Shown in pieces: positions 39,094-64,000 of a stretch of 64,000 nt of DNA; positions within the stretch are counted from its first letter, which is position 1, and each line of letters opens with the position of its first letter. The stretch lies in assembly GCA_947561715.1 (NCBI GenBank), contig OX387201.1, forward strand, positions 2,126,001 to 2,190,000, read 5' to 3'. The translations under genes were made by a program, and so were the position numbers. The notes below the pieces were generated by a model. It saw only the letters and a list, made by a program, of their open reading frames with translations, made no database searches and was not told where the DNA came from. The DNA comes from Ascidia mentula. Taxonomy: Eukaryota; Chordata; Ascidiacea; Phlebobranchia; Ascidiidae.

Positions 39094-39242
39094 CCAGCTG
39101 CAGCTGCATACAGATGGCCACTGTTTCGACCTATAAGGTCCTATCAGTGCAATTGGTACGGCCAAGCAATGACACCTTATACGTCGAAGCAGTGGCCGTC
39201 TGTTTGCAGCTTACACATTTCACATTATTGGCTCCACTTTGT
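39094..39242. mobile_element. decayed hammerhead-bearing repeat, inverted pair
   Basis: This locus shares several words with the element at 54,757-54,892: AAAGTGGAGCCAATAAT (minus strand), TTGCTTGGCCGT (minus strand) and GAAACAGTGGCCATCTGT (minus strand, near 39,111-39,128). Two ribozyme-like units face opposite ways. The minus-strand unit (about 39103-39152) has CTGATAG in place of CTGATGA, and the plus-strand unit (about 39165-39213) has lost bases in the CTGATGA box and reads GAAG for GAAA. Both are predicted inactive. Confidence 0.7.
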
Positions 39243-41220
39243 TTATGTTTTTAGTGGTTTGGAATTATTCTATTGTTACAACACACTTTAACACGCCGCC
39301 CAACGCAAGCACTGGCACAGTTGAATCCCTTTGATCTCAGCCCCAGTTGCCCAAATATCAAAGTCCATTCGTCCGACAAAACGGAAACAAGGCTTTCGAT
39401 CGCAAATCTTGATCCACCAGTTGCGCGTGGAGTGCGGACCGCGCCACTTTTGGCGACAGTGGCGCGCCCCTTTCAAGGCAGCACTACAAACTCTTGGAAG
39501 ACTCAATGACTCCAAAAATACGCCCGCGCTGACGGAATTGTCTTCAAGTGTTTGCTCCACTTCTCTTAAGAAGGTGGAAGGATTTTCGGAGTGCAGCCGG
39601 AAATCCAGACCTTGCGCTCACACCGTATTGTTGTAAGCTGGATACAAAGACAGACATAGTGTCATATTGGGAAGATGGCTTGGCCCGCCGTAGCTTGTTA
39701 AGAGTTGGAGGTGTGTATTATACAAATTCTACCATGACTTCAAAGTTGAGTGACAAGCAATAATGGGAACTTTATTTGAATATATGAAAAACAACTCACA
39801 CAAGTTGTATGAATGTCACTCATTTTACATACAGCCTTGAAGGGCTTCGGGAGCTTAACTTGTTGTAGTGGTCACTAAAACGACACTGACGCAACGTCGG
39901 GTAAACAAGAAACTCACCGGGGAGCAAACAAAACTGGCACCTGAATGTCAGCAACAATTAATTCCGCCAGACTCTTAGCCTTTAATCCTCGACCGATTTC
40001 ACTCCGTAAATGTGCTTTAATTTATTGCTCAACTCCCATTAAAGATCCACTTTCCCCATCGGCGTACGAATTAATGTGAAACCCACCTGCGCCAGGCGTT
40101 AGCCCCCGTCACCCCATATCAACCGATTAAAGCCCCAGGGGTCCTCATGTTTCTCACCCACGCGGTGGTTAATGCGCCCACTCTTAATCTCAGTTCAGGT
40201 TCCAGTTCCCCAGCGGCGTCTTCTCACTCAGTTCCCATGACCCTCCACGTCACTCGGGCCCCGGTTCTCAGATGGGTTGGGTTTCTTTTGGTCCCAGAGC
40301 CCAACACCGGACCGTTTTCTCACTTCAAAATGTCAACGCGCGCGAATGTCGATCCAGCGCTTACAAAAACATGCCTTGCAAGGGAAGGCCACCGAAATTG
40401 TTCGCGAGTTGTTTTAGCAAATCCTTTTGCTTGTAAAAATGTGCGAAGCCCGGGGTGGTACAGGTGTACGCTATCGGTGGTTTGTGCGGTTTTTCTTATG
40501 TGGGCCTGCTCTGTTCATACCCACAAAGATGATCGAACAGTTGGGCGCAATTTATTATTATTAAACAGGGTTTTAAAACAACAACCCCACTGGAAAGGCG
40601 CATTTGTTATTCCTTTTTTGTACTGAATGGAATTACATATGTTTTATCTGTTGGTCACATGTCTCATTAACAGAACAGGTAAAATTTGACCGTTCCAACA
40701 ATTAAAACCTCTTCTGAAAATCACGGTATCAAAGTACACTGCGCAATTATTAAACGCTCTGCACATACAAGCGCCGGGAGCTGAATTTACAACCAGTAAG
40801 CAGAGCGGAATGGAAGCGCGATGGAAGCATCAGATCAACGAGGAGGCGATTTCGCGATCATTTACGAGTGGTCGTAGATCGTAATTACCGCAGGCAAGCT
40901 TCACGCCTGTCAGGACGCACAAACAATCGACAAGGACGCTGCCGCGGAGGCGGGTGGCACAAAAGTGGGGCATGCAGAAAAAATGCGGGCGACGCTTTGA
41001 TATGGTAGAAGTGTATAAGCAGCTGCTCTTGGGCAAAGGTTCTGAGCCTCTGCATTCCGCATAAATCGAGCCACAAATGGAGTTGAAATGCATTATTGTT
41101 GGGTAGGTTTTATAGAACCAGATTGACATGGGAGCGACTGGGGTTGCTCTAATTGTAAATTGCCTTAAGTGGCTTCTGGCATTGTTTGAATTTTTTAAGG
41201 AGCAGTGTTTTTTCCTACTT

Positions 41221-43352: not shown

Positions 43353-46300
43353 CTGGTAAAGTTAAAGGAATAAAAGATAAAAAAACGTGTTGTTTTGACA
43401 TTTGATAAGTCATCAAATTATTATTATATAACGAAGTAAGTGTGTAAAATATTGCGTGCGTTGCCAAAAAACTCTCGGTGGCTGAATATCTCCACTAACT
43501 ATAACAAAACCATGATACAAACACATCTAAGTTTTGCTATCAAATGTATCTATAGAAATGTTAAGTATGTGCAATGACGTCAACTTACATTTGAATTCTT
43601 TGACAGTAACTTCGGCGGAACAGGAGGCCTCCCCCAATTCGTTTGCTGCCGACACGGTGTAAACTCCGGCATCTGCAGCTCTGGCACGACGAATCTCCAG
43701 TTGAACAATTCCTATGAAACAAAACGAAAACTCAATCGACATGACCAGTGTGGCTTCCACCTTTAATATTCACAGATACACAATTATGCGTTGATTTACA
43801 GATATGTCTCTTGTGCAGTCAGTTTTTGTTTTAATTGCCATAAAAATAATTTTAAAAAACGGTTTCTTTGGCACAAAAGTCAGCTTACACTATATTTAAC
43901 CGACATTTCGTCAGCCACGCGACGAGACTTAATCAGGGTTAGTTTGCTCACAGTGTATGTATATGTGTTGTTCTTACATAAAGCGAAATTTTTCAAATTT
44001 TCATAGTATATATCATATTTTTTAGTTAAAAGGGTTTCAATCTGATGGATGTAGTTAGTGATGGCAGCCAATACTCCCAACTAAATGGAATTTACCATTA
44101 CACTCGACAACAGGTAACCATTACACCTTTGCGGAAGTCCCCACATAACCCAACACCCCACATTCCAGCACACTCACCCATCGCCTGAGTCATCTTGTAC
44201 TTGGGGTTGTCTATGATTTCAACCTTGTTCTTGTACCATCGCACCTTGGGCCTGGGGTTGCATTTCAACGCACAGCTCAGCGTCCCGTTGTAATTCTCGA
44301 CGATACGACGGCTGTTCAACACTTGGGTAAACTCGGGTTTGATTCTGAAATCCATCGCTGGGTAGTCTGGCTTTTTGTACACAGTTTCTGCACCAAAATA
44401 ATTTTGGGTTATTTGTGTTTGTTGGCATCATAAGGGTGGTATTTTTATCTTCCACTTGCTGCCTTAAACAATGGCTAAAATTAGGGTTACTACATCGTGC
44501 TTAATTCTAAGATTTGAGCTGATTTCCAAAAGAAGTGTTTGAGGGAACACAAATGTTTTTGTCATCTTCTATTTCCTTGCAAATTGTTGATTAAACACAA
44601 TCACTTGGAAAAATCGTGTTCACTGTTTGAATGTGAAAACAAGGCATGCATTGGTGCTTAGTCCTCAGCCAATATCGTAAAAAGTAGACCTCAAAGCAAT
44701 CAACTTCTCCACGCCATCAATCATTTTTACCACAGCGTGAAACTCACAGAAAGGATGTACATAAATTGCGATAAGATCTGTTTGTATGCAAAGACGCGAC
44801 TTACTTTCTTTCGGGATGTTGGCTCCGTCTTTGGATGCGTTGGAATCTCCCACCCCCACTTCGTTGAATGCTTTCACTCTGAAGTAATAACTGTTGCCCA
44901 ACACCAGGTCGCTCACTTGACACTGTTTGTGGCGGAGTTTGTCGTACACAACGTACCTGTAGTTGGGTGAAATATTTCATTTCAAAACTCAAGCTGAAGG
45001 TAAACAGTGAAAAAGTTTGGATACAAAGATATAAAATAAAGAAAGGATATAACGAAAGTTGTATTGTGGAGATTGTACTTGATAATAATAATAAAGCCAG
45101 ACATATTTTTGTTTTTTCGAAGTACTGGACGAGTGTATTGTGACCGATGTTAGATTATGCAACATAAACAAAAAAATGTTCTTTGCTTTGTCTGTTCCAG
45201 TTCCTGGGATTGAACGCAAATCGTTATTTTGCAGATTACGTAATTGTCAAGATACTCAATCTAATCAGCACGAAATGCCTTAAGCTTTCACCGCAAGCTA
45301 ATTGCACGATCCTTGTCTCGAAAATCCTTAGTTTCTTCAACATCGAAAGCAGGAACCGATCGAAAGACGATATCGACTTAACTTAACGACTTAAAACCAA
45401 CGGAAAGTCGAACAAAGGGCGAAAACCCGAAGCGATTTGCGCGGAAGAATCGTCCGATAAGCGCATTGTGATTGATAGGGACATATGGTAATATTTTCAG
45501 GCCCTCGGAATTTGTCTATCTGATCTGGGGAGTTCGAATGCAGCATGCTGCATTACGTAAGCACATGCACAGTTAAATGTTGTAAAGAAGCTCGAGCGAT
45601 TGAATGCGATCTTCGGGGACGATAACGCGCATCGCGATTCGACTATTGACAAACGAGTCACGCGGAACCGTCTGCCACCACATGAAGGCTGGCAAACATG
45701 TTTCCTTGATAGTTAAGGGATTAACCGTGCTTGTGAGAGGAGCTCTTCTTGTCTTACCATAATCAGCGAACAGGTTCGGGTGCAGAGTTAACACAAAGGA
45801 ACATTTAAGGGCACCGGGAAAAAAACAATATATTTTGGTTGTTCGACCGCACGGAATTGGACAAGCTTGTTTGAGAATCGTGCGCGGTCCTACAGAGTGG
45901 GACCAAGCGACTAAACCAGCACGCGCTCAAAGCAGAACACTTCGTTTTTGCGAAGGGGGGTTTTGAATAACACCAAACAAACTTTTTTTTTCAAACAACA
46001 ACGGGGTCGGACTAAACTAGAAATAGATCAGGAATCCAACGTATGTTAAGGTGGCGAAACCAAGCTACTTGCATACGCCGGAAAATGGGTTTTTGACGAC
46101 TTGATAAAGGACACGATACCGGAAAGAAGTATAAGGGACGAACGCGTCACTTGCTTTTATCTCGGGGTCAGAATGCGATAATCGGGTTGAATTGTGACAG
46201 ATATGAAGTTTTGTCGGAGGAAAATCGGCAAATTCAACTTGATTATTTATCTAAATTTGCGTCAGCTGTGTATCATACTGAGCAGCACTTGTATTTTTGA

Positions 46301-49300: not shown

Positions 49301-52300
49301 AAATTAGTCGCTGCCCGTAATGCTACGATTGCGCGGTCACGTTTCGTGTGAAGTCGCCGGGTTTGAATCGGATTTATGTGAGTTGAACACAAGGCAAGGC
49401 ATCGTGAAAATCGCATTGAAATCGCCGGATCAAAAGGATGAAATTCACCATCCGTCGGTTGCGCTAAGCATGTCCACTGCTGACCGATGACCGCGACCCA
49501 TTATAAGCTGTTTGAAACTAACATGAAAAGCGTAACCACTTAACTTTGTGGAAACGACACAAAAAAAGCCTTTGGTTGAATGTTAACCGATATATACATC
49601 GACTGCAAGTTGGATATTTTCTTAGATATTACGTATTCTTTTGGGTTTCGTGTACATTCGCAATAGACACTGGTTTATATTTCGATGGAAAGTGTATTAG
49701 TGTACTGAAGTTCACCGTGTTGCGTGTGCCTTAAAATGACAGTGGACATTTTCACCTGGGAAGATCAATTCCAACACAAATATTATTGATATTAGCATAA
49801 ACTTCGGTACATATGAGCGTGTAACGCAGATCACTTTGCACAACAATCACATTAACTGCACGTACATATGGTATCGAATATAAGGTTGTGAAGCACGTGC
49901 TCCAATTTCCTATTCCCGCCCGTATAGTGTTGCCACAAGCCGCCGTAACACAATATTAAGCGTAAACAAAGCGAGCGGGATATTTAATAGTTGTTTGTGG
50001 TGACGTCACCACATTTACGTCTCAACCTCCGTGTAAATATTATGAATGGAGCTTTACGCAACGCAAATATCTCGTATACAGACGATAATGAGGTTTTTAA
50101 CACAACACCGTGTATGTTGGTATTACGTGTGGACACCTCACCCCATGAATCAATACCACATTGAAACTTCAAAAAACGTGGCGTCCGCGATAGTTAGTGA
50201 ACATTGTCTTTGGTCAGCTTGCTATACTTTCGCGCCCAATCAAAAAAAAAACGCAATGACAGCAGTACCACCGACGGGGCTATAGTAAAATATGTTACAT
50301 CTTAACCTAATTAAAGCCTAGTTAAATAGCAGACGAAACGTCGGTGAATTGAAAAAGTAAACGTTAAGTTGTGCCAGAAGAACAGATTAATTGAAATGTA
50401 TTATATCTGTGCATGGGCAAAGTTTTGCATACCAGTCGTCACTGCGCGCGTCCCGTTTCTCAACCACGTATCCCAAAATATCGGTGTTTCCGTTGTCGCT
50501 CGGTTCCTCCCACTTAAGGGAGGCAGAGTTCCCGATCACTTCTCCCAACTTCACTTGTCGGGGTTTCGACGGAATATCTGCAGGAAAAGCGGATGTTTTT
50601 AGGTTCTTCCTGTCTGTGTGGCCTTGTAAGGAAATATGTAACTGCACATAGAGACGTCATGGGTCGTAGGTGTCGTGGTCGGTTTCAGGCGAACGTTAGA
50701 AGATTGGTGCAAGTTGTTTGGGGGGGGGGGGTTATGGGTGTTTAGGTGTAGGGGGCGTTTTGGGTCACGAACTTGTTGGGAGAAAGAGTGGTTACTTGGC
50801 ACTAAAGTCAACGTGGAAGCAGGTTAAAAAATGCCAAAATCATCGTGACTTGGTCAAAGTCACAGCGCTCCTATGATACATTTGTACATAATAATAAATA
50901 TGTTTATCAGACAGAGTTAAGCAACGAGGAGTTAATGTGCTCTAATCGTTGAATTCCGACGACAGTTTTACACATATTTACTTTGCGGTGAAATACTAAC
51001 ATGACGCACAAAAGACTTTGCGTCACGCAGCTAAAATCTTAATAACATTCAACGTGCAGATATCAGGCGGCCTTATCATAAGCTCTGTGTACGTTTGGTA
51101 TGACGTCAAAACTTTTCTTGATTGTTATGATTTGCAAAACATATGGAAGACTTAACGGCGCAAAAAAACGCATACTGTAGGGCGGGGTTACCAACCTGTT
51201 TGGCTCGCGGGTCGGAAATTATCAAAATATGTGACAGGTGGACCAAAGGGTTGCACTACAATTTATAAACTAATTTCCTTTAAATAACTTTGAAATAGTG
51301 TAAACGAAAAGCAAAGAAAATGTGCAATAAAATTAGATTAGGCTTCAGTATGAACGACTTTCTTAAATGATCCTAATTTATATAAAAGCTTAGCGTGCCA
51401 ACTTTAAAGATCCAACAGGGCCGATTTGCACATGCCTACTATAGGAAAATCATTGTCACTTTTCTCTTATGAGCACCCCGTCAACACGTACGTATCAAAA
51501 CACAACGTTGTAAATAATATTTACGTGCGCAGGGGTTACTAAACGGTAAGTTGCCATATTGGGACGCTCCATCGCGACAAAACAGCCCATCGAACACAAA
51601 ACAAGCGTCAATGGCACTCTCATTGTGGGTTGTTATATAAACTGATGAACAGGCGGTTTCAAGAGGACATCCCTTTCCAACGGCACGATGCCATTTAAAA
51701 TGCATTAGCCCAGCCTTGCTATAAACAAACCGTGACAGATTGGAGAACGGGCAGCGTCACAGCGCCTCGAATCGGCGAAACGATCGACGATAGGAAAGCG
51801 TTAAACCATCGATAAGGTGGGATTCGGACGCGGAAAAGCGCAAACAAGCCACGAAAACGCGAAACGCTTGCGGTGGCATCATTGTGACGCATCGCGACGA
51901 CATTTGTTTCACACGTAACGTTTGTTCACCCCCTCCCCAAAAACGCGGCGAGAATAAAGCGCGGTTCCATAATAAACTTTTATTCCGTTGAAACTTCAAG
52001 GATCTTGACGCCCTGCGTCACGCTTGACTGACTTCTCTACGTCACACAGGCGTCGTTGTTTAGTTTTCGGGGGCAAACTGACTTTCAATATTCCCGAATT
52101 AAAGGTTTGGTCGCCAACGCCCTCAAAAGCGCGTGGCGAGATACGTGGTCGACCCCGGAACTTTGAACGCGCCATTGCAATGCAGAAATAAACAATAACA
52201 CGGGGGACACTTTGTGCTGGGGAAGCGGAAAGTAGGCACTGATTCGAAGATTGAAAAATAAATGAACATCGCCAGTAAGTATTTGTTTAAAAGGTATTCT

Positions 52301-55300
52301 GAGATTAAGTAACTCTTTCACCCTTGTCCGCTGGCCAGCAACTGTTAAGCTTTTACTGATAGGCCGGCGAAATTTTGTGTCGTTACCGACAAGTTTGACC
52401 TTGCACTAAATTCAAGAAATCCTCGACTAAATCTCGAAACTCACCGATGACGGCGACCTCTATCTTCGATTCCACCACGTCGTCGCCAACCTTCAGGTTC
52501 AGATCATAAACACCTGAATCCCATCTCTCCGCTTTCCTGATGAAGAGGACGCTCGAATCCAGGGAGTTTCTCACCGCCACGTGCTCTTCCAGGGGTTTTC
52601 CCTCCTTCGTCCACGTCAGATGGGGCTTTGGGCGGCCCTGTGGAATATTTGAGGTGTGCGTTTAGTGTCGTCATAAAGACGCAAATGACGTCACTGAGGA
52701 GTAGTAATTTGTAGATCATGGGCCAGTATCATGGCAAGCCTAACCCAACACTTCGATTTCTTTGTTACAAAGAAGATTCCGGGCCTTTAAACGAATAGAA
52801 GTTCTGAGTGCGTTTGCGTAAGGCTTAATATTTGTACGGCATATATTCCACAGGTTCGCATTTAGTCCTGCATTGAGGTGGGGGTTGGCATGTTGCAGAG
52901 AAGCCATGAAGCCGGCCGAGTGAAGCAGGTTTATGTACACAGTCATATTTAAGCCCGAACGCAAACACAGGGAACCGTTTTTAAAATAACAATCTTCCAA
53001 GTTTACGTCACGCCCCGATGAACACCAACGGAAAGCAATTACCCTGAAGGCGCCAAATTTTTGCGCAAATTTCGCTTTTCGTTGCGCTCAAAAAAACCTC
53101 AACAGAGAAATTGTTTTGCGCACACAAACACATTTCAAGCACTGAAAACATCCTACGGTGTTCATTATCATGCAGTTATCTCGTATTGGACAACAAGCAG
53201 TCGGTGGGCACTTCAAACAGCTTGAATGCCTGCGGCAAAGGTATAATTTAGCGTAGCCTTAGTGGATGTATTTGATTCCGGTTCAAATTGGGCCAATTAA
53301 CCGCTCAAAGCGGAGAGGCGCAAATTTGCAACGCGCCCTTTGATACCTGCCACCGGCTTTGCCTTTAATAAACGTTCCAGAGATATTCCAACGAGCAATC
53401 ACTGCGGCACATTGAAAAGGTTGCATAGGATGTACACCTTGCAGTGGTCGACCGTCGCCCCAGTTTTAATTAAAGGCTTTGTTCGAGCGAAGTTAGGAAA
53501 ATTCCTTTACTTTGATGTTCAAAAAGTTATTGAGTTCCGCTGGTGAATCGGAATCTGCTTTCAAGGTTTCAAACGGATTTTTTTATCGCGGTTCTGGCGC
53601 AATATCCCCAAAACCTTGTCGGGATGAGCACGAATGAAAAAAGGTTAAGGAGCTGGTTATTACATGTATGCAGGTACCTGGTAGGGGACGTTGACGTGGA
53701 GCTTGTCACCAACCTTCACTTTCACCGGCTTCAACAGATGACGTGGCAACACAATCTTGGCTTCCTCTGCGAGAATAAAATGTTGTTATTATGGCACCAG
53801 GACAAAGAAAAACTGCTAACATGTCGGTTCTTTAAAAATGTCGAAATTTGTGTAGTTGTTCCGTTATAACGTACTTTGATTGTGTTGTCAAAATGATTGC
53901 CCATTGGAAATAAGCCATGAAAAGGAAAACGTCTTATTTAATGTATAGTGGTGATGGTAAATGCCAAGGACTTGTGGCCACGCGTTGCGTAACAGATAAA
54001 ACGAGAGTGTGACGCTATGAAAAAACACCCAGATCAAAGATATAGAATGATTCATAATCCTCAACCGCGACCACATCTTGAAACAGGCGACAGGACCCGT
54101 GATGTCACAAGTTCGTGCGACACAAACCGCAACTTTAAAGCGACACGCGACACCGTCATCGCGGTTTCCCTGGGCCGTGATTCAAACGCTTATCGCGACT
54201 TTTGGCGCCAAAATCATCGAAACCACGTGTCTGCGGCCAAAAGCTGACGATATCGCGAATATGAGTTTTTTCGCGGTTTAAGCAACTCGATATGATCGAT
54301 GTCAGTAAAACGATACACTTTGAGAAAAGAAGACATTGTAGCAGTTTAAGAAGATGTTCATTATTAAATTAAATTCCACCAACGCATTTTCCACATGGCA
54401 TTAAATACAGATGATAAGATATTGTGTTGACGCGAACGTGACAAAAACCACGGGATTAACGATAATTCGCAACTTGACAAATGGATTTTCCCAGCTGTGT
54501 GTACAACGACCGCACACGAGATCAAAATAATCGCTTGCGGATTGGATTGTTTGTGTGTGGAGTAAGGAAATGCCTTCTAAACAATTTAATCGTGGATTTG
54601 CGGAGATTTAATGCAGCTGTTTGGTTGTTTTGTCACCTGGTGGAACAGCTAAGAAGCTGATTCAGCGAATGGAAGGCATTGACTTTTGGCAACAACAAAA
54701 CATAGCTAAAAGTCAATGTAAAAAGATACAGCTTTAATACAAACTAAAGTTAATTTAAGCAAAGTGGAGCCAATAATATGAATTGTCTTTGCTTGGCCGT
54801 TTGGTCAGCATAAGTCGTCTTATAGTCACACCAGCTGCACTGATGAGACCTTTTAGGTTGAAACAGTGGCCATCTGTCTGCAGCTTACACAATAAAGTTA
54901 ATTTGTCTGCATTAAATGAACAACATTTAAATTGTGTTAATGCAAAAAGATACTGAAAAGGTAATAGGACGTAAGTTTTTAAACCATTAAGCTTTACTTA
55001 ATAATCACTAGTTGATGACGTAGTGTGCTTTGCAGATGTATTTACTGCGAACAGGAAGCAAAATAGTTGTACAAACCAAGTTGGTTTAGTCTTATAGACC
55101 GCGCAAAGAACCACAAACACACAATCCGGCCTTAAACAAACCCTGGCATTAAGGCGCCAAAGTGAACTTTGATAAACGTAAGCGTTTTGGTCTTATCTAC
55201 CGGTAAACCCCACAATTGTTGACCGTGTAATCAATAATAAGCATGCACCCGTTTGAAGTCGCCCGACTGTCGATGGCTTTGCAAGTTGTGAGGATTTATC

Positions 55301-61300: not shown

Positions 61301-63761
61301 TAAAATGCTGCTTGTATGTCAGCCGAGTACGAATAGTTCAATAAAGGATGTCGCAAAACATAGTTACTACAATACCTTATATCCATCCAACCCTGCAGCA
61401 CCAATTTCCGCTGGAGGGAGCCAGGAGAGCTCCAAACTGTCATCCGTAGCAGCAGAGACTTTCAAGCCGGTCGGTTCGCTACAAGGGGCTGAAGAAAAGA
61501 TGCAAGGAAGGTTTATTTTGAGCCAAAACCTCTCCGATAACACACAATGGATTATCTATCGTGTGGTGGTTGTTGTTGTATTTGAGAATAAAAACTAACA
61601 CGACAAATTTGCTGAATGAAAAATCAAGATTATGTGCAAAAGAGTGTGTTAAAAAATAACACAATACAAGAAACAAAAAAAAAAGAGTTTAAAACCACCA
61701 CATGACCTGTAAAATCGAAACGCATACAACGGGACACAATGCCTATAACAGGCTCCCTAAAGTCAGACCAAACCTACACTGATGGTCAACAAAATAGCTG
61801 GACGACGCCTTCGGCCTAGGGGTAATTACGCACGCAGAGAGAAACTTTTTAAAACCAACACGAGGTGGCGATGAGTTGATCCAGGGGTTAAACCGCGTGC
61901 AAACAGACCAGGGTCACGCTTCACCCATAAGGCCCCATATCAAAGCTTTCGGGCCACAGGGGGCACGATATGTCTGCCCCTGGGGTTGGTAATTGTGATG
62001 CAACAATAAAAATGCGCGCCTATTTTTAGACTCGTAGGTCGGAGGGGTGAATTCGAGTGGGTGGCGGAGGGTCGGCCCCAAACGGGTCCCCATTGTTACC
62101 CCAGGTTTGACCGTTGAATAACGAGGCAAGTTGGGTAAACATTGCGTTACGCCTTATTGGGTTTAAAGGATCTCAGTTGCTGGGTAAAGAATGGATCTGC
62201 TTGCGTTCCAACTCTAATAACAAAGATCGACGAGAAGCAGCAACAGCCGAGACACTATGACCTAACTATGTCAAATAATGTGAAACTTTATAACCAACAG
62301 TTAAAACCGCAGTAGACAAAGACATGAAAAATACTAAATGGCGCCTCAATGAGTTTGGGGAATCCCACAAGCCACAAGACACAACATTATGTATATAATA
62401 ATCCAATAACCTTTTCGAGACACAACTGTACAGTTTATATAGAAGTCAGTTTTCCCTACAGAATGCACAAGTGGCGTATATAGGCTCTTATAATCACAGC
62501 GCCATAACCACTATAAAATGAACTCTTTTTTGACCTCGTCGTGTTTTTTGCACATTTACTTTTGTACATCCCGATAAAAGTTGCTGTATAGCAACTGAAA
62601 CGTTGGTGTTTGTAAATATTAATCCTAGAAGAATTGTCTTGTAGTAATAATACGCCTGGCAGCATCAACAATGTATCACTATAAAAAATGTCACTACGAA
62701 ATCAACGACCGTCACATGCATGTCAGCACAACAAGAACGCACCTAGGCTGGCCGGGGTCACTATCCATATCGGGTTAATATCGATGCAGCGAAAAAGTCG
62801 CGCGAATTGACGCGGTGGCGACCTCTTGCGGAAGTTCGGGCTCGCCCCCCGAGCGTGGAACCGAAAGCAGACTGCGACAAAACAAAATAATTCAGTCGCT
62901 CGGCCGTGAGGAACATTTTGTAGAATAACTTTGATCTTACACCTTCACCGAGCTGACAACCTTCCTATACTACAGGTCTGCTGGATGCGCTGGGTCATAT
63001 TTATCATTCTGCTACTGACAATAAAATATCAGAAGTAGGCTATATACTGTTATGGGCACCGATAAAACCATAAACATTTGTGAGTCGGGCGCTAGTGGAC
63101 CTCGCAGAGCGTTTTTTGTTGTTGTTTTACACTCGCCTGTAGGTATTTTGCATTTGTGGCGTGCCAAACCAACCTAGCGGACCTGTTGTATTGGAAGACA
63201 CGATTTATCCAAGCTTTTGTAAATGACGTTTTGTGTTTGCATTGTGGTCTTAAACCAGGATATTGGGTAGTTGTTAACAGTTTGTTAAACGCACACAACT
63301 AAAGTTCCTTTTGTGCATCGTAAATACTACCAAGTTCTTGCAGTAACCACCCGACGACAACCCTAATTTCGTTGTTTAAAAGCAGTCTATTTACAAACAA
63401 GTTGAACGAAAGTATCTAATTGTACAAATTACTCCTGCATTGCAATCACGCTTCCACAAAGAATATCGTGTCCCGTAAAACTCGTTCTAAATATCGTGAC
63501 CCGTAAAACCTTCCATACAATCACAACCAAACTTCAAAGTTAAAAATAAAACACAGCAAATCCATTACTGACCTAACGGAGTAAAAGGGATGCAGGCTTG
63601 ACTCCCTTCACCAATCCCAACCTCATTAACAGCCCGCACACGAATCTGGTATTCCGTTCCTTCGATCATTCGGCGTGCCACATACTCTATGTATGGGAGA
63701 GGTTCGATCATGAGTCGGATCCAACGTTCCGACTTCACCTTCTTACGTTCCACGATGTAAC
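43342..63761 (-). CDS. MYBPC: myosin-binding protein C, C-terminal part (C6-C10), 5' end outside window
   Basis: Ten minus-strand exons encode about 474 residues: 63573-63761, 61376-61488, 60886-61087, 53678-53766, 52445-52637, 50433-50577, 44805-44956, 44178-44387, 43589-43711 and 43342-43352. All junctions are GT-AG and phases agree throughout. The module order is Fn3, Fn3, Ig, Fn3, Ig, which is C6-C10 of vertebrate MyBP-C. Diagnostic words include GYIVERKKVKSERW (C6), PPAEIGAAGLDGY (C7), LPRHLLKP and VLFIRKAER (C8), LVLGNSYYFRV (C9) and WYKNKVEIIDNPKYKM (C10). In vertebrates this half anchors the protein to myosin rods and titin in the thick filament; no kinase domain, the mark of the twitchin/titin family, follows C10. 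Vertebrate proteins are about 1130-1270 residues, so roughly the first 60% should lie to the right of base 64,000. It converges with the RASSF gene and shares no function with it. Confidence 0.93.
43589..43711 (-). CDS. MYBPC: MyBP-C exon, second half of Ig domain C10
   Basis: It encodes GIVQLEIRRARAADAGVY and onward to EVTVKEFK, the E-to-G strands of an Ig fold. The usual Cys two residues after the Y of DAGVY is Val here, so the canonical Ig disulfide cannot form. The acceptor is TTTGTTTCATAG and the donor AAAT|GTAAGTT. Confidence 0.9.
44178..44387 (-). CDS. MYBPC: MyBP-C exon, C9-C10 linker and first half of Ig domain C10
   Basis: It starts KTVYKKPDYPAMDF, like the linker before C10 in vertebrate MyBP-C, and continues through FTQVLNSRRI, TLSCALKCNPRPKVRWYKNK and on to KMTQAMG. 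The B-strand Cys and the core Trp of the Ig fold are present. The donor is ATGG|GTGAGT. Confidence 0.92.
44805..44956 (-). CDS. MYBPC: MyBP-C exon, second half of Fn3 domain C9
   Basis: It encodes YVVYDKLRHKQCQVSDLVLG then NSYYFRVKAFNEVGVGDSN, the typical Fn3 F-G strand pattern with Y-x-F-R-V-x-A. It joins the previous exon in phase 2, restoring the Trp of DDWYVV. The donor is GAAA|GTAAGT. Confidence 0.92.
45537..45554. repeat. 18-bp perfect palindrome
   Basis: AATGCAGCATGCTGCATT reads the same on both strands. A palindrome this long is mildly unusual in 64 kb but can arise by chance. Confidence 0.9.
50306..50344 (+). repeat. GAAACG-family / hammerhead-like remnant
   Basis: This 39-base segment aligns without large gaps to the core of the 22.6-kb element. 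CCTAATTAAAG stands against CCTGATGAAGG, GTTAAATA against GTTAGATA, and both end in GAAACGTCG. The CTGATGA box is mutated at two positions, so it is predicted inactive. Confidence 0.45.
50433..50577 (-). CDS. MYBPC: MyBP-C exon, first half of Fn3 domain C9
   Basis: It encodes DIPSKPRQVKLGEVIGNSAS, then LKWEEPSDNGNTDILGYVVE and KRDARSDDW. The W of the B strand, the P-x-D-x-G turn and GY-x-V-E are classic Fn3 marks. The acceptor is GCTTTTCCTGCAG. The donor splits the Trp codon (TG|GTATGC). Confidence 0.92.
50720..50731 (+). repeat. poly-G run (12 G)
   Basis: An uninterrupted run of 12 guanines lies in a MyBP-C intron. Its exact length may be unreliable. Confidence 0.75.
52445..52637 (-). CDS. 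MYBPC: MyBP-C exon, second part of Ig domain C8
   Basis: It encodes GRPKPHLTWTKEGKPLEEHV, then AVRNSLDSSVLFIRKAERWD and SGVYDLNLKVGDDVVESKIE. It begins at the Gly of the pattern FQGKPRPELTW seen in vertebrate C8. As in vertebrate C8, both Ig cysteines are absent. The acceptor is AATATTCCACAG and the donor ATCG|GTGAGT. Confidence 0.93.
53678..53766 (-). CDS. MYBPC: MyBP-C exon, start of Ig domain C8
   Basis: This short exon encodes EEAKIVLPRHLLKPVKVKVG and DKLHVNVPYQ, matching the start of C8 (I-x-x-P-R-H-L). The frame is entered in phase 1 and left in phase 0, as the next exon needs. The acceptor is TTTTATTCTCGCAG and the donor CAG|GTACCT. Confidence 0.9.
54745..54904 (+). mobile_element. 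short hammerhead-bearing element with 12-bp flanking direct repeat
   Basis: The direct repeat TAAAGTTAATTT occurs at 54745-54756 and 54893-54904. It brackets 136 bases that begin AAGCAAAGTGGAGCC and end in the 3' strand of ribozyme stem I followed by CTTACACAA. The repeat looks like a target-site duplication. It encodes no protein, so any movement would depend on enzymes from another element. Related words are found at 39.1-39.24 kb. Small non-coding retroelements with hammerheads (retrozymes) and Penelope-like elements are known carriers of this ribozyme class. Assignment to either is inference. Confidence 0.75.
54833..54885 (+). ncRNA. type I hammerhead ribozyme (predicted intact)
   Basis: Stem I pairs AGCTGCA (54833-54839) with TGCAGCT (54879-54885), 7 perfect pairs. 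The CTGATGA box is at 54840-54846. Stem II pairs GACCT (54847-54851) with AGGTT (54855-54859) around a TTT loop, with one closing G-T wobble. GAA is at 54860-54862. A15.1 (54863) pairs with U16.1 (54877). Stem III continues CAG (54864-54866) with CTG (54874-54876) around a 7-nt loop. The cleavage-site nucleotide is C at 54878, so self-cleavage is predicted between 54878 and 54879. Every conserved core nucleotide is present. The short stem III is typical of the minimal type I forms found in animal retroelements. It lies antisense to the MyBP-C transcript, so it would act only in a plus-strand RNA. Confidence 0.88.
56872..56919 (+). repeat. two direct copies of a 20-bp unit
   Basis: GAACGCAGTTGTGTTCGAAA at 56872-56891 is repeated at 56900-56919 with one substitution, and a third partial GTTGTGTTCGA follows. 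It looks like a local tandem duplication. Confidence 0.8.
60886..61087 (-). CDS. MYBPC: MyBP-C exon, second half of Fn3 domain C7
   Basis: It encodes LEQLLVGAQPEEWKSAHQ, then ITKIVLDKLVTAKKYKFRLS and AINRAGTSGYAEMGPVV. The Y-x-F-R-x-x-A-x-N pattern is the Fn3 F strand. The acceptor is TCTTCTCACTTTCGCAG and the donor GTCG|GTAAGT. Confidence 0.92.
61376..61488 (-). CDS. MYBPC: MyBP-C exon, first half of Fn3 domain C7
   Basis: It encodes APCSEPTGLKVSAATDDSLE and LSWLPPAEIGAAGLDGYK. The segment PP-x-x-I-G-A-A-G-L-D-G-Y is a strong signature of C7 in vertebrate MyBP-C. The acceptor is TCTTTTCTTCAG and the donor AAG|GTATTG. Confidence 0.93.
61762..63572 (-). other. MyBP-C intron between C6 and C7 (part)
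   Basis: No exon was identified in this 1.8-kb part of the 2.1-kb intron. It contains the GAAACG-family hairpin at 62,570-62,620 and G/C-rich, repeat-like sequence around 61,900-62,110. Confidence 0.7.
62570..62620 (+). repeat. GAAACG-family element with perfect hairpin
   Basis: The sequence CCCGATAAA is followed by a perfect 6-bp hairpin (AGTTGC, loop TGTATA, GCAACT) and then GAAACGTTGG. This is the order box-1, stem II, GAAAC of a hammerhead, but box-1 differs from CTGATGA at two positions and I find no stem I partner. It is probably a decayed ribozyme-bearing repeat. Confidence 0.45.
63573..63761 (-). CDS. MYBPC: MyBP-C exon, second half of Fn3 domain C6
   Basis: It encodes YIVERKKVKSERWIRLMIEP, then RRMIEGTEYQIRVRAVNEVG and ACIPFTPL. 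ERKK-x-x-S-x-RW and MIEG-x-x-Y match C6 of vertebrate MyBP-C closely. The exon opens inside a Gly codon (phase 1), so an upstream exon ending in G is required. None was found before the window edge. The acceptor is CACATTTTCCCACAG and the donor TTAG|GTCAGT. Confidence 0.93.
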
Positions 63762-64000
63762 CTGTGGGAAAATGTGATGATGTTGTATATCTGCCGTAAC
63801 GTGAACACCGGTATTTTGGGCAATTATAAATTAGGGACTCCATAGCTCCATCATGTAAAATTAAAGTAACAACAGATCACTGGTTAAGCCCTTGTTGTTT
63901 TTTATACTGATATTAGACTTATTCGGACTGTAATTCTGCTAGCAAAGCAACAGCCGAAACATAAAATCCTTTGCTAAATTCATTACACAGATATATTAGG
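63762..64000 (-). other. MyBP-C intron, running off the window edge
   Basis: The missing first half of C6 must lie upstream on the minus strand. These 239 bases show no frame carrying the expected Fn3 B-strand Trp and so are read as intron. Confidence 0.7.

Follow-up and report, generated by a model that had tools for sequence, protein, structure and literature searches.

A stretch of 53 nt in an intron of a MyBP-C-like gene carries what an earlier note described as an apparently intact, minimal type I hammerhead ribozyme, which raises the questions of whether the motif is genuine and how it came to lie there. We analyzed the 64,000-nt stretch of DNA that contains it (the window), which was almost certainly placed on chromosome 5 of the solitary ascidian Ascidia mentula, and searched the genome of this species (195.8 Mb, 79 contigs). 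The hammerhead proved genuine, and the sequence that carries it is the fossil copy of a non-LTR retrozyme of this ascidian. The way in which animal retrozymes move is an open question in the field, with Penelope-like elements (PLEs) named, in the available parts of two accounts, as strong candidate movers (Cervera and de la Pena, 2020; PMC7229834) or likely ones (PMC7761336).

The intronic hammerhead and its insertion

The features of the locus are collected in Table 1. The window hammerhead (AGCTGCA-CTGATGA-GACC-TTTTA-GGTT-GAA-ACAG-TGGCCAT-CTGT-C-TGCAGCT) contains every core nucleotide, with cleavage predicted after C17, as the earlier note had read it. Stems I and III likewise have the 7 and 4 pairs claimed for them, but stem II has 4 pairs and reaches 5 only if a T-A pair closes a 3-nt loop. 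When the core was combined with stems of 5, 4, and 4 pairs, each allowed at most one G·U, the resulting full descriptor matched once in the window and nowhere on either strand of 20 Mb simulated by a first-order Markov model, in agreement with the claim that a random origin is very unlikely. Genome-wide, the strict half-motif CTGATGAGACC-N4..6-GGTCGAAAC occurs at 1,817 places and its reversed pattern at 0, and because of this the hammerhead is not a chance occurrence. A chance likeness within intron sequence might be argued from the lack of an Rfam match above threshold and from an ordinary fold stability, but it has to contend with the empty 20 Mb of random sequence and with the unit junctions and target-site duplications (TSDs) described below; it is already refuted by copy number, and its probability is negligible.

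Table 1. Positions in the window of the hammerhead, the insertions, and the host exons
Feature	Position	Strand	Basis or description
Type I hammerhead ribozyme	54833..54885	+	Letters, full descriptor, family covariance model
Stem I, AGCTGCA/TGCAGCT, 7 bp	54833-54839/54879-54885	+	
Core CTGATGA	54840-54846	+	
Stem II, GACC/GGTT, 4 pairs including one G·U	54847-54850/54856-54859	+	
GAA	54860-54862	+	
Stem III, ACAG/CTGT, 4 bp	54863-54866/54874-54877	+	
C17	54878	+	
Predicted self-cleavage site	54878..54879	+	C17 position
Left TSD TAAAGTTAATTT, 12 bp	54745..54756		Identical to 54893-54904
Right TSD TAAAGTTAATTT, 12 bp	54893..54904		
T arm, inverted, unit ~27 back to 1	54757..54784	-	blastn unit 1-27, 96%
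S1 arm, unit 175-280, end ..CTTACACAA (start site S1)	54785..54892	+	blastn 97%
Ig exon of host MyBP-C-like gene	52386..52661	-	Best match cardiac MyBP-C 998-1051, E 2e-19
Fn3 exon of host gene	63568..63876	-	Titin best (3e-35); MyBP-C 804-868 at 1e-15
Second, decayed two-armed retrozyme insertion	39102..39246		R1 59.0 and 29.8 bits; blastn; sequence

Folding energy was unremarkable for the 53-mer (z = −0.99, with 36 of 200 shuffles equally or more stable). With tertiary contacts left out, the hammerhead fold of the window copy (−12.6 kcal/mol) competes with a more stable alternative (−15.9 kcal/mol), and its 10.1-11.1 pair is G·U where the family usually has G-C. The competing fold is also the more stable one in family-1 copies, including in their predicted circle. 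Covariation of the stem pairs was not detected: none of 15 pairs had changed on both sides, and shuffles did no worse. Structural support comes from the conserved stems and from the fold of a second family (see below), and it is from structure alone that we infer a putative ribozyme activity. The word "intact" thus holds for the core and stems, which are complete, and holds structurally only, given the G·U pair and the competing fold.

Rfam at gathering thresholds gave no match anywhere in the window, the best hammerhead match in a local scan being Hammerhead_3 at 16.2 bits (threshold 48.5), so the covariance-model hit proposed as a check by the earlier note did not appear. The same model gave 20.6–21.6 of 48.5 bits on tandem copies in one further locus (L077) and on copies in another (L034). 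Rfam was dropped as a judge, as neither the window copy nor those in L034, L053, and L077 reach its threshold. Because other family copies also score far below threshold, the miss seems to reflect incomplete Rfam models, and since the other tested copies miss too, it does not refute the window hammerhead. The core and stem layout of RAGATH-1-hammerhead (RF03152) and Hammerhead_3 (RF00008) align with the family copies, which miss the thresholds of both (at most 28.3 of 56.3 bits and 16.2–24.9 of 48.5 bits, respectively). A family covariance model (R1), built from 21 other copies with the window copy excluded, scores the window copy at 87.7 bits (E = 5e-25) and also finds the decayed copy at 39.1 kb. 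There is thus an ascidian hammerhead family with some 1,800 strict half-motifs, yet the tested copies lie under the Rfam thresholds. Weak microRNA-like Rfam matches on inverted arms (mir-556 and mir-605; L034:1234-1355 and L053:1067-1186) are palindromes of retrozyme insertions and no evidence of microRNAs.

The hammerhead sits in an insertion of 136 bp (54757–54892) flanked by a perfect 12-bp TSD. The "136-bp element" of the earlier note therefore survives as an insertion, but has no family of its own, being a truncated two-armed copy of a non-coding element of ~285 bp. Its anatomy is ordinary for the family (T arm ~27–30 nt, S1 arm 107 nt, TSD 12 nt), and beyond the T arm the next letters resemble ~3 nt across the unit junction. 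A lone copy of this kind, having no second unit, would not by itself be able to yield circular RNA. Further out than the TSD, a direct repeat of 18 nt (89%) flanks the insertion (54712–54729 and 54936–54953), possibly through chance or an older event.

In gene direction the Ig exon is downstream and the Fn3 exon upstream of the insertion; the matches of both minus-strand exons to MyBP-C support a MyBP-C-like host context and bear out the reported position of the hammerhead, antisense to the gene in the intron between them. Retention of the window copy as a functional ribozyme acting on the MyBP-C-like transcript, for which the complete core and stems might speak, is very improbable. The motif is antisense to the gene, so that the pre-mRNA lacks it; its exact 39-mer with GGTT, G·U pair included, has 8 genomic occurrences, 7 of them in other copies; and the insertion anatomy is that of the other copies.

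The second retrozyme insertion of the window is laid out as the reverse complement of unit 274–219, then 232–280, then 1–28; its right side bears the tail end, at unit 28. It is older, and the core of its inverted copy is broken, having mutated to CTGATAGG. Two short stretches (43893–43941 and 50326–50384) match stretches downstream of PLE endonuclease domains (L090 and L096) at 75–82%, and are perhaps old PLE scraps.

The retrozyme family in the genome

A loose hammerhead pattern matched 4,661 places in the genome versus 549 for its reversed control. The unit is non-coding and ~285 bp long, the motifs in an array on contig C1 being spaced at 285–286 bp, and 348 unit-unit junctions were found genome-wide against 0 in the control. 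In this array (C1:3,332,442-3,334,266), two part-units, the first of them inverted, come before five full units and a terminal 33 nt. The whole is enclosed by 12-bp repeats ATAACACCTAAT that form its TSD; one arm is 1,680 nt long (~5.9 units) and the inverted one 145 nt. The ribozyme is shared by a second family (L053, L064, L066, L067, L070, L076, and L087), for which blastn against a 180-nt L053 piece gave 40 nt at 92.5% and 13 nt exact, with a further ~60 nt at 77% in L087. Stem III is longer in family 2, and its minimum-energy fold contains the hammerhead.

These findings fit the known animal non-LTR retrozymes. A type I hammerhead with full core, a tandem unit within the ~170–400-bp range, and a TSD longer than 4 bp are all present, and the retrozyme or Penelope affinity suggested by the earlier note is borne out. 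The metazoan non-LTR retrozymes compared here are those of PMC7229834, the A. mentula element being known from DNA alone; in the available text of that source they share with it the type I hammerhead, a non-coding unit of ~170–400 nt, occurrence from dimers to arrays, a TSD of more than 4 bp, thousands of motifs, and co-existing PLEs. They differ in that two-armed, dispersed insertions ending at S1 and T are not described in that text, whereas many were sampled here. The GC content of one A. mentula unit (47.4%) is above the <45% of Figure 1C and below the <50% of the text in the same source. Plant LTR retrozymes are likewise non-autonomous and ribozyme-bearing, with circular RNA intermediates, but have a type III hammerhead, LTRs, and a 4-bp TSD, as the same partial source describes them (PMC7229834). 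Stem III has at least 4 bp in the retrozyme, whereas published PLE hammerheads are described, in the available part of one account, as minimal (PMC7761336). For another tunicate, Didemnum vexillum, 9 type I hammerhead loci are mentioned in the portion available of PMC8704543.

Two observations concern other copies and motifs. One insertion is common to nine loci whose flanks are 87–95% alike (L048-L052 and L055-L058; C1:1.21-1.77 Mb); it adjoins a coding-like stretch and could date the duplications. Another hammerhead-like class, ending in GAAACGTC, is scattered in the genome (e.g. G000:C1:3281654-3281688), and motifs like it also occur in PLE ends (L083 and L085).

Insertion ends, arms, and the RNA template

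We mapped 85 loci, comprising the 30 best matches to the window piece (window copy included), 40 C1 stretches chosen among the loose-pattern matches listed, and the 15 best matches to unit 1–154. Removal of 19 as the same or duplicated locus (flanks 87–100% alike) left 66 deduplicated loci, and composites of at least 80 nt with at least 90% identity were kept, giving 52 insertions in 51 of the 66; the 15 loci that contributed nothing after these cut-offs hold family 2, family 3, old copies, or short single pieces. S1 was defined as unit 268–283. Very short arms are under-sampled, since copies were found via the ribozyme or a long unit piece, and the TSD, arm, and inner-end counts (51 insertions, 79 arms) exclude one insertion (L040).

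In all but 2 exceptions among the 52 insertions, the outward ends fall at S1 or T. S1 ends lie mostly at unit 280–283 (..TATACACAA or ..TTACACAA), at a distance of 16 nt beyond the ribozyme cleavage site; the T ends are found at unit 25–46 of the next unit (..ATTGCTTATC), ~25–46 nt beyond S1. The two kinds of end are paired: 27 insertions have S1 with T, 1 has S1 with S1, and none has T with T, the others being S1 with a truncated end (17), T with a truncated end (5), or of another kind (2). At least 27 mixed pairs of 28 have P = 5e-8 under independent choice of ends. At a looser 80% identity, the 60 composites include 31 S1+T and 2 S1+S1 pairs (L040 and L050). L040:781-1048 reads as S1+S1, with both outer ends at unit 274 in a variant ending CACAGA; a TSD was looked for there and not found, and L040 is a possible single exception to the S1+T pairing.

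Of the 26 S1+T insertions, 18 are flanked by TSDs of at least 10 nt, as are 25 of all 51 insertions, versus 0.17% for shuffled flanks; none of 10 nt was found in the remaining 8 S1+T insertions. The 18 average 12.2 nt and 82% A+T (window, 55%). For L099, the script scored a TSD of 7 nt, yet acaactaacatat is present on both sides. This insertion anatomy, with its preferred ends, S1+T pairing, TSDs, and inverted arms, is new here. Among the papers listed in literature searches on these links, none has a title or opening abstract lines that show such ends for a retrozyme.

The arms bear on the nature of the template. The 45 S1 arms are 62–405 nt long and the 34 others (32 of them T arms) 19–1,680 nt, with 17 of the 79 exceeding 300 nt. 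Because all S1 arms cross the ribozyme cut 16 nt away, their templates had either escaped cleavage at that ribozyme or been resealed there. A comparison of 44 pieces from 15 chosen insertions gave 0.58% differing positions for units of the same insertion (0.79% where the units were in opposite arms) and 1.74% for units of different insertions, and because of this smaller difference within insertions each probably copies one RNA species. In two of the 15 (L034 and L077) both arms share a variant absent from the other 14. Inner ends fall at unit 1–10 in 13 of 79 arms (P = 0.001, for a range chosen afterwards and with a contribution from the alignment edge), as if synthesis had halted on reaching its start site. 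Run-off at the ribozyme cut was considered and rejected, inner ends at unit 262–272 (4 of 79) showing no evident excess. The 29 central joins comprise 17 overlaps (1–6 nt, once 14), 10 with filler, and 2 with neither, counted without a chance control; the overlaps suggest microhomology.

Taken together, the arms, the joins, and the likeness of the units fit two cDNAs made on a small RNA circle. When one natural unit is folded as a circle, the prediction is well paired (z = −2.7 against 40 home-made shuffles), with the ribozyme in the competing fold. The template might instead be a linear multimer transcribed from a tandem array, with no RNA circle involved. Tandem arrays are present, long arms are expected from linear multimers too, and in the available text on the Anolis PLE the unprocessed RNA is the dominant in vitro substrate (PMC11167929). 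The greater likeness of units within than between insertions, the variants common to both arms in L034 and L077, and the cluster of inner ends at unit 1–10, its post hoc range notwithstanding, speak against it, although homogeneous linear multimers would fit both the likeness and the cluster. We regard a linear template as a doubtful but serious possibility.

A further alternative is that the inverted arms arose by self-priming or snap-back of one strand, with no two separate primers. Self-priming on an antisense template is the reading preferred for the inverted arms of Adineta vaga PLEs in the part of that study available (PMC3846280), and it counts against two primers; one insertion (L061) is symmetric at its center, with inner ends 125/125. 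In most two-armed insertions, by contrast, the two inner ends do not share a unit position (e.g. 155/229 and 140/270), and 27 of 28 insertions have S1 at one outer end and T at the other. L061 excepted, single-strand snap-back is not favored, and we consider it distinctly unlikely.

Penelope-like elements and the proposed cycle

Elements of the Penelope type are resident in this genome. GIY-YIG matches numbered 121 among 150 scored of 382 candidates, with open frames of up to 892 aa, and several are in inverted or tandem pairs. In one array (C67:6.13-6.15 Mb), 2,870-bp units run minus, minus, plus, plus, plus, with a hammerhead-like motif CTGACGA, two end points 44 nt apart, and a TSD AGAATCAATAAT that may in part be element sequence. 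Three further PLE pairs have TSDs TTGTATAAAATA, TTTGCCAATTTT, and TTCTTTTCCGCTG and tails of ~32–42 nt. Thus, 4 of 5 PLE pairs have inverted halves, one S1-like end and one ~32–44 nt further, and 12–13-nt TSDs; for the fifth (L088/L089) ends were looked for and none could be defined. The retrozyme shows the corresponding traits, namely two adjacent internal start sites, inverted arms, and a short TSD.

Published PLEs, as far as the available text of two studies goes, share more with the retrozyme (Adineta vaga, PMC3846280; Anolis PAc, PMC11167929). Insertions in Adineta have inverted pLTRs, one of which carries an optional 31-bp tail, and TSDs of 8–10 bp (PMC3846280); tandem units, two adjacent internal start sites, and a hammerhead upstream of them are further common points (PMC3846280, PMC11167929). 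A PLE protein, when purified, cuts the two strands and extends each of them, favors AT-rich DNA, and begins synthesis at a pair of neighboring internal sites; these lie in an AC-rich stem loop and delimit the known "tail" (PMC11167929). Several statements in the same partial sources count against the present proposal: start sites are reported with no difference between strands; ribozyme mutants left in vitro insertion unchanged, so that cleavage was not needed (both PMC11167929); and cross-mobilization between PLE types was not seen (PMC3846280).

The 285-nt unit is too short for an ORF with reverse transcriptase and GIY-YIG, which separate PLEs carry. The retrozyme lacks a PLE ORF and differs from PLEs in having no sequence in common with the 19 PLE-region loci (L079-L097): the unit matched there only retrozyme copies in L087 and L095, apart from one weak 18-nt match in L081. 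No PLE sharing the start-site sequence of the retrozyme was found in these 19 loci, which cover a minority of the 121 GIY-YIG matches.

Because of the retrozyme insertion footprint, mobilization by Penelope machinery is likely, as judged from sequence. The anatomy common to resident PLEs and retrozyme supports the published proposal that PLEs move retrozymes, perhaps via RNA circles. Twin priming also produces 5′ inversions with TSDs. A LINE or other reverse transcriptase might therefore have moved the retrozyme by ordinary twin priming, with no PLE machinery, and the failure to find a PLE partner with matching sequence in the 19 PLE-region loci would be in keeping with this. The outer ends, inspected by eye, have no poly-A or simple 3′ tail, and the two start points 25–46 nt apart, with their S1+T pairing, match the PLEs of the same genome and the published PLE biochemistry in the part available (PMC11167929). 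Insertion by such an enzyme seems rather unlikely.

We consider it quite probable that a single insertion left the motif in this intron as the ribozyme of a retrozyme that is non-autonomous, of the non-LTR kind, and moved by PLE machinery in the following cycle. Tandem copies would be transcribed and the transcript cut by the hammerhead; unit RNAs would be ligated into circles, as we infer from published work in other animals. A PLE reverse transcriptase-endonuclease, probably as a dimer, would then cut both strands of AT-rich DNA ~12 bp apart, and each freed 3′ end would prime a cDNA within the RNA, usually with S1 (..ACACAA) as the starting point of one cDNA and T as that of the other. The two cDNAs may be shorter or longer than one unit length, and their joining in the middle would give the inverted S1...T insertion.

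The wider proposition, that animal retrozymes are Penelope parasites for which a PLE dimer makes two cDNAs on one small RNA circle, almost always from S1 and T, is put forward tentatively, at a little under an even chance. If true, each insertion would record a two-primer rolling-circle event, and PLE integration in general would follow the S1+T pairing. The footprint common to retrozymes and resident PLEs, with its preferred ends, its tail, the pairing of S1 with T, the TSD, and arms of great length, can be counted, which makes the proposal testable in any genome that has both kinds of element; it is also a trace of the way in which PLE proteins may prime synthesis on the two DNA strands. Among the resident elements, the C67 Penelope array (L079-L081; C67:6132200-6148700) has units that are identical where compared in L079, together with the open 892-aa frame, which suggests a recent insertion.
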